Shown: positions 23,311 through 38,312 of the stretch, one piece after another
How the letters are laid out: the number at the start of each line of letters is the position of its first letter
Position numbering within the stretch: position 1 is the first letter of the stretch
From: Candidatus Poribacteria bacterium
GTDB lineage: Bacteria > Poribacteria > WGA-4E > GCA-2687025
Assembly (NCBI GenBank): GCA_028818695.1
Contig: JAPPNK010000001.1
Coordinates: 1 to 40,155 of the forward strand
Length of the DNA stretch: 40,155 bases
Reading direction: 5' to 3'
Program-made: the position numbers and the translations under genes
The notes under the pieces: generated by a model
What the model was told of the DNA's origin: nothing
Seen by the model: the letters and a program-made list of their open reading frames with translations, nothing else
Database searches by the model: none

Positions 23311-26300
23311 CTATTTCAGTATGAGCAGCCTGCGCAGGGGCGTTCGCCGGCTGCCGGCGACAATCTCCACAAAGTAAAGCCCGCTCGCCGCGAGTTCGCC
23401 GAGGTCGTTTCTGCCGTCCCAGCGCGCCGCCCGGTTCTTGGTCTTATAAACGCCCGCCGGAAGACGCCCCATATCCAGCGTCCTGACAGGGCGGCCGCGC
23501 GAGTCGTAGATGTGGACGCTCAACTCGTTCTCCTCGCCCAGCGCGAACGGTATCCATGCCTCCGGGTTGGACGGGTTCGGAAAGATCGGGAAGCTTTCCA
23601 GCGCTTTCACCCGTCCCCATTGCGTCAGCAGGTCCTGCTCCTCCGCCGATTTCACCTCAATCGTCTCGCTCATGGAGCCGCGGTTCATCGTGCCGATATT
23701 TTCCAGCCTGTAGTAGTACGTTTTTTGAGGGTCTGCCGTCGCGTCCGATGTTTGATAATCGATCGGATTGTTGGAGTAGGGTCGATAGGAGGCGCGCATC
23801 TTATCGGAGACGGGAGCGAAGGGTCCGTCCGGCGATTCGGAGCGCAGGAGCCTCCATCCGATATTGCCGCGCTCCTGCGTCGATGTCCATTTTGCGATCA
23901 TATCGCCGGATACTCTCCATCGAATCGTCAGATCTTCGATGACGCTGGGAGGCGGCAACTGGAACGGCGCGATGCCGCTTCTCATTGCGTCGCCGAGGCC
24001 TGTTGTCCAGTCGGCGCGGTGAATCGTGTAAGGCGTGTCCCACACAAAAAGCCGTCCGCCGATCTCAGGGAAGGCGATCGGATCGTCGGGGTCAGCCTCT
24101 TGGCGGTAGGTGGCAACAATGAGCTCGGCGGTATCGTCTCCGTCCAGATCGGCAAGCGTCGGGCTTCCGAAGACGCCGACGGGCAGTGTGACGAAGTCGA
24201 AGACGGAGCCGTCTCCGTCGATGAAATAGACGACGCTGCCGTAGTTTCGCCCGTAATTTCCAACGGCTATGATTTCAGACGCCCCGTCTCCGTCCAGATC
24301 GGCGAGAAGCGGAGTCGACTGCGCATAGGAGGAGAGCGGAATCGGAAACGGCTCCATTTCCGTCCCGTCGGCGTTCCAAACGTAGAGGTAGCTGTCCCTG
24401 TCGACCGCGGCAATTTCAGCTTGTCCGTCTCCGTCAATGTCTCCGACGCTGACGGGCGAGTTGATGTTGTTGACAATCGGCGCGGGAAATCCGTCTTCGA
24501 TCTGCGAAATCGCGCTGATTGCGGAGATTCCTCTAAAGGAGCCGTTGCTGAGAAAGGTGAAGAGAAGCGACAGGTCTTTGTCGTCCAGCATGGCGAGCAT
24601 GGGAGCCGCTTGCGAATTTGGGCCGCTGTCGTATTCGAACGGGTATCCGTCGCGCAGCTCAAGATTTTCATCCCAGCTCCATACGGGTCCTCCGTACGAG
24701 GTCTGGTAGATTTCAACTTTGCCGTCTAGATTGATGTCGCCGGCAATCGGCGCTGTGTACACATATTCGTCCGCTCCAAGCTCAATCGGGAAGCCTTGGA
24801 GCAGGTTTCCGTCGGCTCCAAAAGCGTACACGCCGGGCGCCGTATCGGAGGCGGAGACAAGGATTTCCAGACCTGGGTCATCGTCGATACTGGCAAGAGT
24901 TGGATTGGATCGAATGGCGCTGGCCGTTTCGGCGGGGAAGCCTGGTCGGACGATTCCGTTGGACGACCATACATGAACTTTTCGATCAGCGGCCGCAACA
25001 ATTTCCATCGTCCCGTCTCGATCTATATCGCCGACAGCGACGGAGCCGACAATCGGCGCGCCGACCGTCTGCGGCCAACCCGGCAGCATGTTGCCGTTCG
25101 CATCGAATCCGTAAACATTTCGGTCGTATCCGCCGACAAAGATTTCGAGCCGGCCGTCCCCGTCAATATCGACCGCGGCGGGCGATGTGATGATATCGTC
25201 TCCTGTTTCAAAGGGAAACCCTTCGCGTACGACAAGGCTGCTTTGAGGCTGGTTGGGCGTTGGACGGGGGCGCGCGAGAACAGGGGCGGAATAGGGGCCG
25301 ATCAATCCGTCAGCGAAAATAGGGGCGACGGCAAAATAGTAGTCGACCCCGTTTTCCATCTCTCGAATTCGGACCTCATTATTTGGAGTCGCAAAGCTAG
25401 GCTCCATGTTTTCAGGGTCGTCCCCCCCAAGAACGCTGTACCCCGCCGCGCCTTCGATGGGGTCCCAGTACAGATCAACGCCCTCGTTCAGGTTCGTCAC
25501 TTCAATTTCTTGGATTGGTCCTGCGGCGGCTCCGCCTTCGAGCAGGGTAATCGCCTGGGAGGGCGGGCTTGCTTGCCCAGAGCTGTTGACGGCGCGCACC
25601 CGATAGACGCGCGCGCTGTCGTCCAAATCTGTGATCTGATACGGTGGTTCAGAAGCGGATCCAACCGTCTCGCCGTCCGCCTCAATGCGGTAGGTCAATC
25701 CGCTCTCTTCGTTCGGCGTCCATGTAAGAGAGGCGGAGCTGCCGTCCACCTCCGCGGCGACGCCGGTCGGCGGACGAGGCACGTCTAGAAACTGGTAAGC
25801 GTCAATGATGCCGTTGCCGTATTCGGGCGACCATGCGGCGTCTCTTCCGGCGCCGCGCGCTCGTTCGAGAGCCTCTATTTGGGTAGTCCCCGAATTTTTT
25901 TGAAGCAGCATGGCGGCAAGTCCGCTCACATGCGCGGCGGCGAGGCTGGTTCCCCCATTAATCGAGTTGCGTCCGTCAGCCGTCTGCAGAAAGGGATGGA
26001 GATTGTCAACCGCATACTGCGAAAAAGGAGCGACAATGATTCTTCCCGGCGCCATGATGTCCGGCTTCTCTCCGCCGTCGGTTCGCGGCCCGATGCTGGA
26101 AAAGTAGGTGCGCGTTCCAAAATCCTCCTGACGCGGGTGAATCACATAAAAACCTTCAAGCGTCTGCCAAACGTTTCGCGTCGAGACCGACCCGACAGCG
26201 ATGATCTCATCGGCGTCGGCAGGCCCGATGACGGAATAATTGCCGTCAGGGACAACTGACAGCGGATCGTTCGGAACATGGATGAATCTTGCGCGCGCGG

Positions 26301-27678
26301 CGTATGCATGCATGACGCCTTCGCCGTGTAGCTCAATCATATAGGGTTTTTGGCTGATGGGTACGCCGAGGTTTCCGAATTGACGGAAGTAGATGAACAT
26401 GTTGTTGAGATCCACATAATCCCCGCTTGGAGCGTCGTAAATAAAGTTGACAAGCAGGTTTTGTACGGGCCCGTCGGGGACAAAGAAAACATTGTTCTGA
26501 CCTGGCTCCGCCACCTCAAATCCGAAAGGATCATGGCCTCCGTCATCGGTCGGAAAGAACATCTGGGCGGATATGTTGTCGTTGGCGGATGTCCATGCGT
26601 CCACATAGAAGAAGTCGGAGCCGAAATAAGGTTGCACATAAAGCCGTTTCGGCGGGTCGCCTTCTTTCAGTTCGATGAGCGCATGGGCGTTGTCGTCGCC
26701 GCTGTTGCCTGCCGCAGCGACCATGATTCGCCCGGGGCGCTCGCGCGCGAGGGTCTGGAGCGCCTCTTGCAGGAACCCGCGTCCGTCATGAGGTCCTCTG
26801 ATGGTTCCGAAGCTGATATTGAGAACGCAAGGCATGTTGAGCTGTTGCGCTTTCGCCGCGATGAAGTTGGCGGCGTCTAGAATGTCGGCGGTGAAATAGC
26901 TGGTTCGCACCGCGATGATGCCCGCCTTGGGAGCGACGCCGACATACCGCGGCGATGAATTCCCCTCAGGCGTCTCGCCGTCATCAACGCGGCCGTTGCC
27001 GGCTGCGATGCCGACAAGCGAGGTGCCATGCCCCGACCTGTCGACCAGATCGGCGATCCCGGCGTTGATGTCCGCCGGCGTCCATTCCGTGCCGTAGGTG
27101 AAGCCTTCGGGCATTCGCCCCGTCCGCGTGTTGATCTGGTCCCATGCGGCGAGGACGCGCGTTTCGCCTGTCTCCGTTTTAAAACCTGGATGCCCCAGAT
27201 CAAGCCCGGTGTCGATAAATCCGATGACCGCGCTCTCGCCGGTGAGAGCGGGGTCGGCAAGATGAAGCTGGTCGGCGCCGATGGCGGGAACGCTGATGTC
27301 CAGCGACGGAGCCAGCGGCACAGCTTTCCGCGGCCCTTCGAGATAGATCAGCTCCGGCGCAGACGCAAGCGCCGACAGATGATGCGGCTCTATCTCTAGC
27401 GTTGCGATGTTGCCGATGATCGAGTTGATGCGAACGCCGTAGCGCTGCAGCGATCGCGGGTCGCCCATCGTTTTGACAATCACAGGCATCCGCCCGTTCC
27501 GCGTCATTCCCTTTAAAAGCTGAGCGCGGTCAAAGCGCGAATCGCGCTCCGCATGCAGAAGCATATGCAGCTGCGGATCGATTTTACGCCTTTCGTCGAT
27601 GGTCAGCGGAGCCGCAGCAACGGTCAATGTGAATACGCATAAGGTTGCAGTCAACAAAGCGGTCGATCGTGTTCGCAT
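23311..27678 (-). CDS. secreted S8 (subtilisin-like) protease with FN3, FG-GAP and FlgD-like sorting domains
   Basis: A 1455-residue exported protease. After a signal peptide comes the S8 domain: Asp156 in FIDTG, His217 in RSGHGTS, oxyanion Asn325 in AAGNS and Ser578 in GGTSLAAAHVSG. The long insert between Asn and Ser and the WDQ...YGTEW blocks resemble the CspA-like clade. Two fibronectin-III-like domains follow (about 635-800), then about seven FG-GAP-like repeats (DIDGDGRLEI, DIDRDGTMEI, DINLDGKVEI, DIDGDGQAEI, DLDGDGASEI, DLDGDDTAEL), and finally a FlgD-like module beginning PIFPNPSNPEAWIP and ending SGLYFVEI...LLILK. This end is a sorting or anchoring signal in several phyla. I chose the ATG at 27676-27678 with GAGAG upstream. 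It heads an operon with PAP2 and GT9 genes. Confidence 0.92.
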   Translation of the reverse strand: MRTRSTALLTATLCVFTLTVAAAPLTIDERRKIDPQLHMLLHAERDSRFDRAQLLKGMTRNGRMPVIVKTMGDPRSLQRYGVRINSIIGNIATLEIEPHHLSALASAPELIYLEGPRKAVPLAPSLDISVPAIGADQLHLADPALTGESAVIGFIDTGLDLGHPGFKTETGETRVLAAWDQINTRTGRMPEGFTYGTEWTPADINAGIADLVDRSGHGTSLVGIAAGNGRVDDGETPEGNSSPRYVGVAPKAGIIAVRTSYFTADILDAANFIAAKAQQLNMPCVLNISFGTIRGPHDGRGFLQEALQTLARERPGRIMVAAAGNSGDDNAHALIELKEGDPPKRLYVQPYFGSDFFYVDAWTSANDNISAQMFFPTDDGGHDPFGFEVAEPGQNNVFFVPDGPVQNLLVNFIYDAPSGDYVDLNNMFIYFRQFGNLGVPISQKPYMIELHGEGVMHAYAARARFIHVPNDPLSVVPDGNYSVIGPADADEIIAVGSVSTRNVWQTLEGFYVIHPRQEDFGTRTYFSSIGPRTDGGEKPDIMAPGRIIVAPFSQYAVDNLHPFLQTADGRNSINGGTSLAAAHVSGLAAMLLQKNSGTTQIEALERARGAGRDAAWSPEYGNGIIDAYQFLDVPRPPTGVAAEVDGSSASLTWTPNEESGLTYRIEADGETVGSASEPPYQITDLDDSARVYRVRAVNSSGQASPPSQAITLLEGGAAAGPIQEIEVTNLNEGVDLYWDPIEGAAGYSVLGGDDPENMEPSFATPNNEVRIREMENGVDYYFAVAPIFADGLIGPYSAPVLARPRPTPNQPQSSLVVREGFPFETGDDIITSPAAVDIDGDGRLEIFVGGYDRNVYGFDANGNMLPGWPQTVGAPIVGSVAVGDIDRDGTMEIVAAADRKVHVWSSNGIVRPGFPAETASAIRSNPTLASIDDDPGLEILVSASDTAPGVYAFGADGNLLQGFPIELGADEYVYTAPIAGDINLDGKVEIYQTSYGGPVWSWDENLELRDGYPFEYDSGPNSQAAPMLAMLDDKDLSLLFTFLSNGSFRGISAISAISQIEDGFPAPIVNNINSPVSVGDIDGDGQAEIAAVDRDSYLYVWNADGTEMEPFPIPLSSYAQSTPLLADLDGDGASEIIAVGNYGRNYGSVVYFIDGDGSVFDFVTLPVGVFGSPTLADLDGDDTAELIVATYRQEADPDDPIAFPEIGGRLFVWDTPYTIHRADWTTGLGDAMRSGIAPFQLPPPSVIEDLTIRWRVSGDMIAKWTSTQERGNIGWRLLRSESPDGPFAPVSDKMRASYRPYSNNPIDYQTSDATADPQKTYYYRLENIGTMNRGSMSETIEVKSAEEQDLLTQWGRVKALESFPIFPNPSNPEAWIPFALGEENELSVHIYDSRGRPVRTLDMGRLPAGVYKTKNRAARWDGRNDLGELAASGLYFVEIVAGSRRTPLRRLLILK

Positions 27679-27728
27679 GAGGTCTCTCAATCATGTTCGA
27701 TGTTCAGAGCGGAAACGCTCCCGTCGTT

Positions 27729-35057: not shown

Positions 35058-36614
35058 TCATTCGTCGTCGCTGTCGTCCTCGTCGTTTGGCGGCTGCCTT
35101 TTGAGACGCTCCCGCTCGTCAAAGCGGCGGAAGACCTGCTCAACCTCCTCGCGCGAATGGCGTTTGCGGACGGCGTTGTAAGCGTCCTGGGCGCGCTGGG
35201 CATCTCCCGCCCTGGCGAAGGCGCGCGCCATGCCCAGCAGCGCATTCATGTAACCTTCGGGCGTCGCCTCGGAGAGACCGTACTCCATCTCAAACACATC
35301 CTGGTATGCCTTCGCAAAGTCGGCGTATGCCGCCGCCATGTCCATCGCTGCGCCAGGCGGAGGGGGCGGGGGTTCCACGCCGCGCGGGGCGTCTGGATGG
35401 TCATGCGAATGCGACGGCTCAAAGTCCCGCGGATCGAATGGACCTTCAAAGCCGGGCGCAACAGATTCTGCAGAGGGAGCCGCCTGTTGCGCCGCTTCAG
35501 CCGCCGCGGCCGCCCGCTCCTCCCAGATGGACGGGAACCGCCGGCGCTCCGGCGAAAAATTCCATGCAGGATATATAGACGGCGATCTCCCGTGCATTTT
35601 AGGAATTGGAATGAAACCGTTGTGGTAAACCGCTTTGTCCATCATGTCCAAACGCTCATAGGCGAAACTGAGATACATGTGCGCCCATACTGGAGTCTCC
35701 TTCGAAGCGAACAGCGGCTCTATTGCTGCGATCGTTTCCTCCGGGAAATCGCGCCAAAGCGCACTTGTCGCTTGGTTTACAGCCCATGTGTCGTTTGGAT
35801 ACAACTCAATAAGGCGGCGGGCGACATCTCCTTTCTCCTCTCTTGGACTCATGATGATCTTTAAGGCAAGGCCGTCGCGCGAGGTCGGGTCTTTTGCGAG
35901 CGCGCGCTCCAGATACATCTTCCCGTATTCACGCTCTGGTCTCCATCCCCATCCCCGAGTGGGGTCATAAAGTTTCTGGGCAGCGGTCAGATCGTCCATT
36001 CCCTCCACCAAAACCTCAATGATCTCCGGCGGCGTGATCTCGGAGCCTTTTGGGTAGCGCGTGGAGCCGGTCGTCGCAAGAAGCGTTTGAAAAATCCGAT
36101 TCTGTCGATCTGAAAGATGGGGGTTCCATGCCCATGTGGAATGTCCCGCATTGGCGAGATACTGCTCCCACTCGGAGGGGTCCCTGATTTCCAGCTCTTT
36201 GCGTCTTTCTTCGAGACGCTTTTCAAGCTCTTCGCCTTGGACGCCCTTTGCTTCCAGTTGCTTCCGCGCAATACGAAGCCATCGTTCGATATCGGGTCCA
36301 AGCGCACCCAGGAGCGTCTTTGGTTGGGACTGTTTAGGCGTCCCTTGAACGCTGTTTGGACTTGTCTGAGAAGGAGGCTCAACCGCCTGATCGCTTGAAG
36401 GCGGGGCAGGGAGGGCGGTCTCTTCAGCCTGTTCTGCCCTGTCCTTGCTTGCATGGCTACCCTTGTTCCCGTCGCCGCTGACCGGCAACGAGTCGGAGAC
36501 ATTCTCCTCGGCAGAATCGGAGGCGAAGTGCCGCGCCGCATTAAAGACCAGCGCGACGGTCAATGCCGCCAAGCCGGCAATCAGAGCGAATCGAATCTTT
36601 TTAGTATTGGTCAT
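35058..36614 (-). CDS. membrane-anchored helical repeat (TPR-like) protein
   Basis: A 518-residue protein with one N-terminal transmembrane anchor (about 7-26, IRFALIAGLAALTVALVFNA), a disordered Ser/Pro/Gln-rich linker to about residue 95, then helical repeats of TPR type (AQKLYDPTRGWGWRPEREYGKMYLERAL and YMNALLGMARAFARAGDAQRAQDAYNAV). A low-complexity segment contains Ala runs, SHSHDHPD and six prolines. The extreme C-terminus is acidic (NDEDDSDDE). No enzyme motif is seen. Its start lies inside the last codons of the HExxH protease (14-nt overlap), so the pair is co-translated and perhaps interacts. Confidence 0.68.
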   Translation of the reverse strand: MTNTKKIRFALIAGLAALTVALVFNAARHFASDSAEENVSDSLPVSGDGNKGSHASKDRAEQAEETALPAPPSSDQAVEPPSQTSPNSVQGTPKQSQPKTLLGALGPDIERWLRIARKQLEAKGVQGEELEKRLEERRKELEIRDPSEWEQYLANAGHSTWAWNPHLSDRQNRIFQTLLATTGSTRYPKGSEITPPEIIEVLVEGMDDLTAAQKLYDPTRGWGWRPEREYGKMYLERALAKDPTSRDGLALKIIMSPREEKGDVARRLIELYPNDTWAVNQATSALWRDFPEETIAAIEPLFASKETPVWAHMYLSFAYERLDMMDKAVYHNGFIPIPKMHGRSPSIYPAWNFSPERRRFPSIWEERAAAAAEAAQQAAPSAESVAPGFEGPFDPRDFEPSHSHDHPDAPRGVEPPPPPPGAAMDMAAAYADFAKAYQDVFEMEYGLSEATPEGYMNALLGMARAFARAGDAQRAQDAYNAVRKRHSREEVEQVFRRFDERERLKRQPPNDEDDSDDE

Positions 36615-38052
36615 AGGTCAGTTGCCCTTCATGGTTGCTGTGCAGCTTGTATTTTGAATGATGGTTTTCCCAGTCGTCCGCATCGGGAGGATCTCCGCCG
36701 GGAGGCGTGTTGTGAGTGTGCGCGTAACCCATGCCAGCCCATCTTATGTACGTAGCTGCATCGACAGGGTTAACCATCACGCAAACGTCCGAGTCTGCGA
36801 CTGGGAAAGCGACATCACCTACATCATTGAAAACGAGTGAATGATGCTCCAAGTTGACAGCATGACCGGCCTCATGAGCAATGATGATCGGCAGGATTGC
36901 ATCAGCGTCGTTATTATAAAACGCTGCAATCCGAACAGTGTAGATCACGCAGTCCGAATTATTTGGAGTGTATGGTTCAGGCCAACCCGGTCCTGGTGTT
37001 TCTCCGAAAACTACCCAAAGTACACCTTCTGGAATTGGAGAGCGGTCTTCTTCGATAATAATAGGTCTCTGGAGAAAGCCGACGATGCCTCCTTGACAGA
37101 AATTCACGTGGACGCCATCCCACTCGGCTTCGTCAATGAAATGCATCGACATTGGGAGACTGCTGGCGTAACCTGTTTCTCCCTCAGAAATGTTCGGGAA
37201 CTCGTCGCTCGGGCCAACCTCTGAGCGAATGAAGACGTCTTTGTATTCTGGATGGAGGCGGGTGTAGCTCCCTCCGACCATGAAGCCGCGGTACTCTTCT
37301 AAAACCGTGAACCCGTCGCCGGAATTCGCGCCAAACTGACGCCATTCGCCTGCTTGATCCCGGTCGCGCCAAGTCTGCTCTTCAGTAAACCGATCAGCTG
37401 TCTGTGTGTCCATAATAGTGGAGCTCCCGTACCAATAAAGATGGTCACGGTCCCATTCGTCGGCAAGCTTGTTGCCCGCGACGCCTTCCAACAATGTGCC
37501 GGACCCCCTGTGTATTTCATAGGAGCCGTCGTCCTTCGGGATCGTTTGGGGTTCAGTCACCTTTGGCAAAGTATAAGTAGGAACGTAGAGCGACGCACGA
37601 ATTTTGCCGTAGGCGGCGTAGTCGTTGCAGACGATGTTCACAGGGATCACAATCCCGTCATGTGAGGGCTTCCTCTGCCAGCTGGCTGTGATTAATGTCG
37701 AATTCTCGCCGCCTCCCGTCCATGTGATTTGACCGTCGTATAGGGTCTGTTGCTGCTCGGCCGCCGCAAAGTAAAGATCCGGTGTGGTGATTCCTGTCTG
37801 TAACAGATCGTTCATGTAGCGGCCTTCGTAGCTCGTCACCTCAGACAGGTGAAATGAAACGGAGGCAAATCCGGGGTGGGAGAGGTCCGTTTCTGCGGTG
37901 AAGACGATGGTTTCTGTGGCGGTCGGTATCCAACCTTCCCATCCGTCTGGATGCGAGAGCGTGAGCGGGTAGGGCGGCGGAATGAGCACACCACCGATCG
38001 GAATGAATATGGCGTGTCCGCGCATCAGCGCGACGCTTGCGAGAGCAAGCAC
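36601..38052 (-). CDS. secreted HExxH zinc metalloprotease, 5' end interrupted by a G10 frameshift
   Basis: The visible frame gives 483 residues from a GTG at 38050-38052. The zinc motif is HEAGHAVNLEH (about residues 393-403), a metzincin-like HExxHxxNxxH with Asn in place of the usual Gly, followed by a possible Met-turn CVMVNP. A GDGFTVLEEYRGF calcium-loop-like segment occurs earlier. The GTG start would cut through a signal peptide: upstream codons in the same frame read NFRSNRAKSALTALFL before VLALASVALMRGHA. A much better start is ATG 38141-38143, with AAAGGG 6 nt upstream, but it is one base out of frame because of ten G at 38103-38112. With nine G the frame joins. See findings. Confidence 0.75.
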   Translation of the reverse strand: MLALASVALMRGHAIFIPIGGVLIPPPYPLTLSHPDGWEGWIPTATETIVFTAETDLSHPGFASVSFHLSEVTSYEGRYMNDLLQTGITTPDLYFAAAEQQQTLYDGQITWTGGGENSTLITASWQRKPSHDGIVIPVNIVCNDYAAYGKIRASLYVPTYTLPKVTEPQTIPKDDGSYEIHRGSGTLLEGVAGNKLADEWDRDHLYWYGSSTIMDTQTADRFTEEQTWRDRDQAGEWRQFGANSGDGFTVLEEYRGFMVGGSYTRLHPEYKDVFIRSEVGPSDEFPNISEGETGYASSLPMSMHFIDEAEWDGVHVNFCQGGIVGFLQRPIIIEEDRSPIPEGVLWVVFGETPGPGWPEPYTPNNSDCVIYTVRIAAFYNNDADAILPIIIAHEAGHAVNLEHHSLVFNDVGDVAFPVADSDVCVMVNPVDAATYIRWAGMGYAHTHNTPPGGDPPDADDWENHHSKYKLHSNHEGQLTYDQY

Positions 38053-38102
38053 GAGGAAGAGAGCGGTCAGCGCAGATTTAGCGCGGTTGGAGCGAAAATT
38101 GT

Positions 38103-38112
38103 GGGGGGGGGG
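38103..38112. repeat. homopolymer tract of ten G
   Basis: A run of ten G on the plus strand (ten C in the mRNA of the protease). It sits about 10 codons after the likely ATG of the HExxH protease and sets its reading frame. Confidence 0.9.
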
Positions 38113-38140
38113 AGGGGACTTGACATTCGTTATGAAGCAT

Positions 38141-38150
38141 CATAGTTTGC
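38141..38150 (-). promoter_or_regulatory. likely true start site of the HExxH protease
   Basis: Minus strand: AAAGGG, six bases, then ATG (38141-38143), followed by a second ATG. This is the best ribosome site in the region and lies 68 nt after the predicted start from the −10 at 38218-38223. Confidence 0.55.
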
Positions 38151-38217
38151 CCTTTCTCGGCAATTGTCGTTTTGGCATTCGGCAGTCGATAACATACCGA
38201 CCCAAACGCCTGCATTG

Positions 38218-38246
38218 ATCATAGCGAAGATTCTTTTGCGCGACAA
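38218..38246 (-). promoter_or_regulatory. repeat-borne promoter, proximal
   Basis: Minus strand: TTGTCG (38246-38241), 17-bp spacer, TATGAT (38223-38218). Closest to the protease start. Confidence 0.55.
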
Positions 38247-38283
38247 CATCTTTTTACAGCGCAACAAACTCCGCCGCATTTGT

Positions 38284-38312
38284 ATCATAGAAGCGATTCG
38301 CCGGCGCGTCAA
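38284..38312 (-). promoter_or_regulatory. repeat-borne promoter, middle
   Basis: Minus strand: TTGACG (38312-38307), 17-bp spacer, TATGAT (38289-38284). It is the same element as 38218-38246, shifted by 66 bp. Confidence 0.55.

Follow-up and report, generated by a model that had tools for sequence, protein, structure and literature searches.

Described systems and the locus in the window

The opa genes of Neisseria are present as dispersed copies, each of which carries a slippage-prone repeat in the leader-peptide region and is switched by a change of reading frame; the copies also recombine (PMC3960869). In the sortase-pilus loci of Bifidobacterium breve, a homopolymeric G-tract splits the first gene of the operon into two ORFs, and the ON and OFF states were shown experimentally (PMC9187656). 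Homopolymeric tracts inside coding genes are described as a general tendency across prokaryotes in the part of the source available here (PMC2831843).

The window (the whole stretch of DNA analysed, 40,155 nucleotides) is one complete contig (C10) of a genome of 3.57 Mb in 35 contigs. All features discussed below for the protease module lie on its minus strand. A preliminary description had pointed out ten G residues following an ATG (38141-38143) with AAAGGG upstream; this tract is present (G10 on the plus strand, 38103-38112), is preceded on the coding strand by CCCCT (38117-38113), and is the proposed slippage site. The coding strand has the order ..AGAAAGGGCAAACT-ATGATGCTTCATAACGAATGTCAAGTCCCCT-C10-ACAATTTTCGC.., and the tract lies between the best start (ATG 38143, with the Shine-Dalgarno-like AAAGGG at 38150-38155) and the signal-peptide codons. 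Translation from ATG 38143-38141 at the assembled length gives MMLHNECQVPSPPPQFSLQPR followed by a stop, which reproduces the termination after 21 codons described earlier (leader ORF 38078-38143, beginning ATG ATG). The protease frame opens right after the TGA at 38142-38140, stays open across the tract and over the signal peptide (NFRSNRAKSALTALFLVLALASVALMRGHA), and ends at 36601. Its part behind the tract (36601-38100, 499 codons plus stop) comprises the signal peptide and a metzincin-like secreted protein and, as had been proposed, is fused to the leader frame by a change of one unit in tract length. At its assembled length the window copy is OFF. The first ATG, GTG or TTG of the protease frame is the GTG at 38050-38052, which lies within the hydrophobic core and lacks a Shine-Dalgarno-like sequence; it is likely to be picked by gene callers and is probably not the real protease start. 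Two promoter-like elements in tandem (38218-38312), predicted from consensus match and conservation, precede the leader: TTGACG-17-TATGAT (38312-38284) and TTGTCG-17-TATGAT (38246-38218).

The arrangement resembles that of opa in that several copies at dispersed sites, with individual leader repeats, would be switched by frame. It differs in the organism, which is unrelated, in the repeat (a mononucleotide C here, the pentamer CTCTT in opa) and in the products: opa encodes one outer-membrane protein family, whereas at least three unrelated secreted families stand under related leaders here, and the metzincin-like, Ig-like or unnamed secreted proteins found are not of the Opa type. The joining of two ORFs by a one-unit length change, here read from the sequence, is shared with the B. 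breve pilus system, which in contrast consists of two loci with independent genes and no common leader cassette. The coding-gene homopolymers, as far as described in the part of the source available, belong to the same class of mechanism, whereas here one repeated cassette spreads the tract to many loci. The slipped-strand mechanism itself is textbook knowledge; the dispersed, modular set of leaders is a new form of it.

Repeated leaders and the genes behind them

A whole-genome search for G/C runs of at least 8 residues returned 28 runs, of which five are contig-end artefacts, 17 belong to repeated 5' leaders and six lie at other places. The tract is not a product of chance, since 17 of the 23 internal runs share one position in the repeated leaders. 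Outside the leaders, only two internal runs of at least 9 were found versus approximately 18 expected from a first-order model, an overestimate because the sample used for fitting was enriched in tracts. The 17 dispersed loci each carry one of three leaders with C8-C19 at the same place. Family A (five loci, the window among them) has the pattern AAAGGGCAAACT-ATGATG..CAAG-Cn-ACAATTTTCGCGCCAAC; AAAGGG is kept in all of its members, and its conserved stretch reaches upstream across the promoter-like pair, which in the window has the form TTGNCG-17-TATGAT twice. Family B (nine loci, of which one is truncated at a contig end) reads AAAGGA..AAC-(G/A)TGCGTCATTTGAAT..-Cn-GCGAGAGTCGGCTGCGTAAAGCGG, and family C (three loci) reads ATGAAACGCCTGAAAAAACTCATGTCC..AATGTA-Cn-TCGCGTAAGTCGGCTGCATAAAGC. 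Both full-length protease paralogues carry poly-C at the same place (C9 and C11, one in frame and one out), and the arrangement shared by the window and these two is seen at 14 more loci; a slippage-prone repeat thus stands between start codon and coding body in the window and in 16 other leaders.

Leader sequence models detected no further leaders in the same genome, apart from a degenerate relative (L207/L072, G000:C13:19494-19562). In this lipoprotein-like gene a B-like signal-peptide region follows an interrupted CCCTCCTCC in place of poly-C, and an ATG stands after CCCTCCTCC where B leaders have CTG; the signal is lipoprotein-like, its hydrophobic stretch being followed by a cysteine. The gene may be ancestral to a switch leader or be a derivative of one that is locked on. 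Three other runs were noted. A C8 (L206, G000:C2:109882) closes a signal-peptide-like sequence (MTKRFLMAAAIAALAIV), is out of frame, is unlike all three leaders and is possibly a further switch; a C10 (L271, G000:C32:33979) lies in frame inside an unrelated long ORF, an EF-G-like candidate; and a C13/G13 (L270, G000:C18:104176) lies within another long ORF.

Tract-free relatives served for comparison. The tract is missing from an Ig-like paralogue (C26:56112-57245), whose own start, AAAGG-ATG, is in frame. Protease homologues in related genomes possess N-terminal signal peptides and lack the tract; none was seen among them that starts at the GTG without a signal peptide, which would have spoken against the earlier reading. 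The model of the B/C leaders (R2) had no match in 57 related genomes, and that of the A leader (R1) had no convincing match in 83 other genomes of the phylum, a weak one in G014 proving on reading to be without a C-tract. No match to the leader patterns was found in viral contigs. The related genome G048, with 58 G-runs of at least 9 residues, was rejected as an instance of the same system: the 20 regions read (L208-L227) show tracts in other repeats and not in leaders, several of them in a repeated, apparently intergenic motif ending in GATCCGGTCTAGGGCATC.

The leaders precede three kinds of secreted protein at the 17 loci, and by inspection all frames behind the tract begin with signal-peptide-like N-termini. 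Family A precedes three metzincin-like proteins and, at two other loci, unrelated secreted proteins of 250-290 residues that resemble the metzincin-like set only in their first 24-30 residues; families B and C precede repeat proteins that are Ig-like by eye and have no Pfam match. As in metzincins (astacin, reprolysin), a complete HExxHxxGxxH motif (HEIGHAVGLDHH) and a CVMSY Met-turn-like stretch are found in paralogue A3. The HEAGH zinc-site motif of the window protease lies at 36862-36876 (the corresponding sequence in the C13 paralogue being HEIGHAVGLDHH), and the window copy differs in reading HEAGHAVNLEHH, with Asn in place of the motif Gly. Matches of these proteins to astacin and reprolysin are weak and below the Pfam cut-offs, the top match among solved structures is astacin (E 0.002), and the structure predicted for the window protease from its single sequence has a mean pLDDT of 32, too low for the model to be used.

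Most of the switched genes are followed by a second gene, which encodes a TPR-like membrane-anchored protein behind the proteases, a PD40/WD40-type propeller behind the Ig-like proteins, or a member of an unnamed family. The second gene in the window (35058-36614, 518 aa) has an N-terminal hydrophobic segment and a C-terminal TPR-like repeat, and its first 14 bases, beginning with the ATG, lie within the end of the protease gene, so that the OFF state may also reduce its expression. The second genes of the protease modules (window, L189 and L190) are near-identical over their C-terminal approximately 90 residues and diverged elsewhere, a pattern that suggests gene conversion. Three second genes of this type stand in tandem on contig C24, and PD40 propeller genes of the partner family occur without a recognised first gene ahead at L266 (C23:1256-2317), L267 (C17:5162-6229) and L268 (C11:7141-8118). 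The window also encodes a subtilase of 1459 residues (23311-27690) that carries FG-GAP repeats, fibronectin type III and, at the C-terminus, a sorting domain of the Por type.

Tract length, reading frame and competing explanations

Frame reading at the window and at the other leaders shows that unit changes of the tract shift each gene between frames. With start codons chosen by hand from the position of the ribosome site and from conservation, five of the 16 leaders whose start can be read are in frame (C9, C9, C11, C8 and C12) and 11 are out, the window C10 among the latter; a share of about one third matches the expectation for drifting lengths. Tract lengths of the B leaders span C8-C13, and B leaders with almost identical flanks carry C10, C10, C10, C11 and C12. 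At one fixed position of the B leaders GTG and ATG alternate, which supports this position as the start codon.

That the out-of-frame copies are pseudogenes is highly improbable. The downstream ORFs are truncated at two loci (B3 and C2) and some dN/dS values lie near 1, as this explanation would have it; most OFF copies, however, retain ORFs of 425-510 codons with in-frame gaps and no nonsense changes. Between B1 and B2, both out of frame, none of the 192 substitutions is a nonsense change (neutral expectation 5.0, P 0.007) and all gaps are multiples of three, which argues that OFF copies are not decaying; A1/A4 (586 substitutions, 19 nonsense changes expected) belongs with B1/B2 to the OFF ORFs that are still open. 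Behind the tract, 35 of 57 differences among B leaders fall at third codon positions. The dN/dS range of 0.35-1.1 would suit exported proteins that diversify or are under weak constraint; as the latter also fits, it counts against a switch, as do the absence of third-position bias in the 5' codons of the A leaders, the broken ORFs of B3 and C2, and a second ATG in A4 that yields an in-frame product in the 'OFF' state. Two leaders before Ig-like ORFs that are broken after approximately 80 codons, probably by a second frameshift, were observed at L194 (contig C7) and L201 (C13:161842).

An indel error had been put forward as the main alternative: the true tract would join the frames, and the gene would always be on. 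Illumina reads do decay into G after G-tracts ('G's end', PMC9187656), an artefact which the runs of 19-51 C at the ends of contigs C4, C11, C22 and C24 fit, and the G11 of a published genome was mostly G12 in cells (PMC9187656). Sequencing error may thus shift a length by a unit, but it cannot make 17 tracts at one homologous position, which a lone error leaves unexplained; 11 of 16 leaders would have to be wrong, and the leader tracts sit within contigs with clean flanks, so that we consider this explanation quite unlikely. (Contig C24 ends in a B leader, the tract of which may have broken the assembly there.) Very unlikely, too, is a start of translation behind the tract, for example at a CTG in the B and C leaders or at GTG 38052 in the window, which would make the tract length indecisive. 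GAGAG does stand four bases ahead of CTG-CGT-AAA in the B leaders, and L072 has its ATG exactly at the position of this CTG. CTG is a rare start, however, the A leaders have no comparable downstream site, and a start at GTG 38052 would cut the signal peptide; moreover, the ribosome site and the start codon ahead of the tract show conservation, and the paralogue that lacks a tract has its start at the upstream position. Slippage of polymerase or ribosome on the C run, transcriptional slippage being possible on long homopolymers, would supply some in-frame product at any genomic length and set a level rather than an on/off state. A programmed site would hold its length and context, whereas the lengths found are spread without constraint over all three phases, which is what DNA slippage should produce; this explanation is unlikely on its own, and such slippage may add to that of the DNA.

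Slipped-strand phase variation, the reading of the preliminary description, is well supported by the shared tract position (repeated in 16 other leaders of the same genome, including paralogues with C9 and C11), the phase counts, the length differences, the open OFF ORFs, the tract-free in-frame paralogue and the tract-free homologues. We hold with high confidence that the poly-C is a translational phase-variation switch, and, instead of reflecting a chance error, the leaders very probably form a set of related switches that turn surface or exported proteins on and off. A cassette of tandem promoters, ribosome site, start codon, approximately 7-23 leader codons and poly-C would be joined ahead of signal-peptide-coding sequence, and replication slippage would alter the number of C residues reversibly in cells. 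At one length in three the start codon would be in frame with the signal peptide and the protein made and exported; at the other two, translation would end after approximately 15-32 codons, and expression of the overlapping second gene would possibly be lowered too. Independent drift of 17 leaders would leave the exported metzincin-like and Ig-like proteins and the other secreted ones, presumably at the cell surface, in many different ON/OFF combinations across the population. Missing mismatch repair as the cause is ruled out by the MutS1 present in the genome, so slippage need not be fast; mismatch repair occurs in many phase-variable bacteria.

Modular exchange and the biology of the organism

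The B and C leaders share 16-18% identity before the tract and 82-87% after it, and this break gives the appearance of halves put together at the tract. Taken with the occurrence of leader A ahead of two unrelated protein families, it suggests cassette exchange. Tentatively, the poly-C might also be the joint of a modular system, in which leaders are swapped at the tract and promoter/start halves are recombined with different exported genes. Such exchange, if true, would give a combinatorial repertoire in which expression signals and ON/OFF state both vary.

The genome holds 56 PhyH-family genes, a number far above that in 14 control genomes, of which one has the family at all, as well as TPR, WD40-like and VCBS/FG-GAP proteins, a content that resembles the published description of Poribacteria (PMC3909097). 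By gene content the lineage is possibly poribacterial, and it is probably uncultured. The literature searched contained nothing relevant to phase variation in Poribacteria or in symbionts of sponges. Slipped-strand switching is mostly known from animal-associated pathogens and commensals.

One genome carries at least 17 dispersed switch leaders; searches of 57 to 83 other genomes of the phylum, depending on the model, returned none. Gene callers will place the starts of tract-bearing genes of this kind wrongly and miss their signal peptides. Should the lineage be a symbiont of sponges, the finding would suggest that such symbionts change their exported proteins in the manner of pathogens, perhaps to counter host defences or phages.
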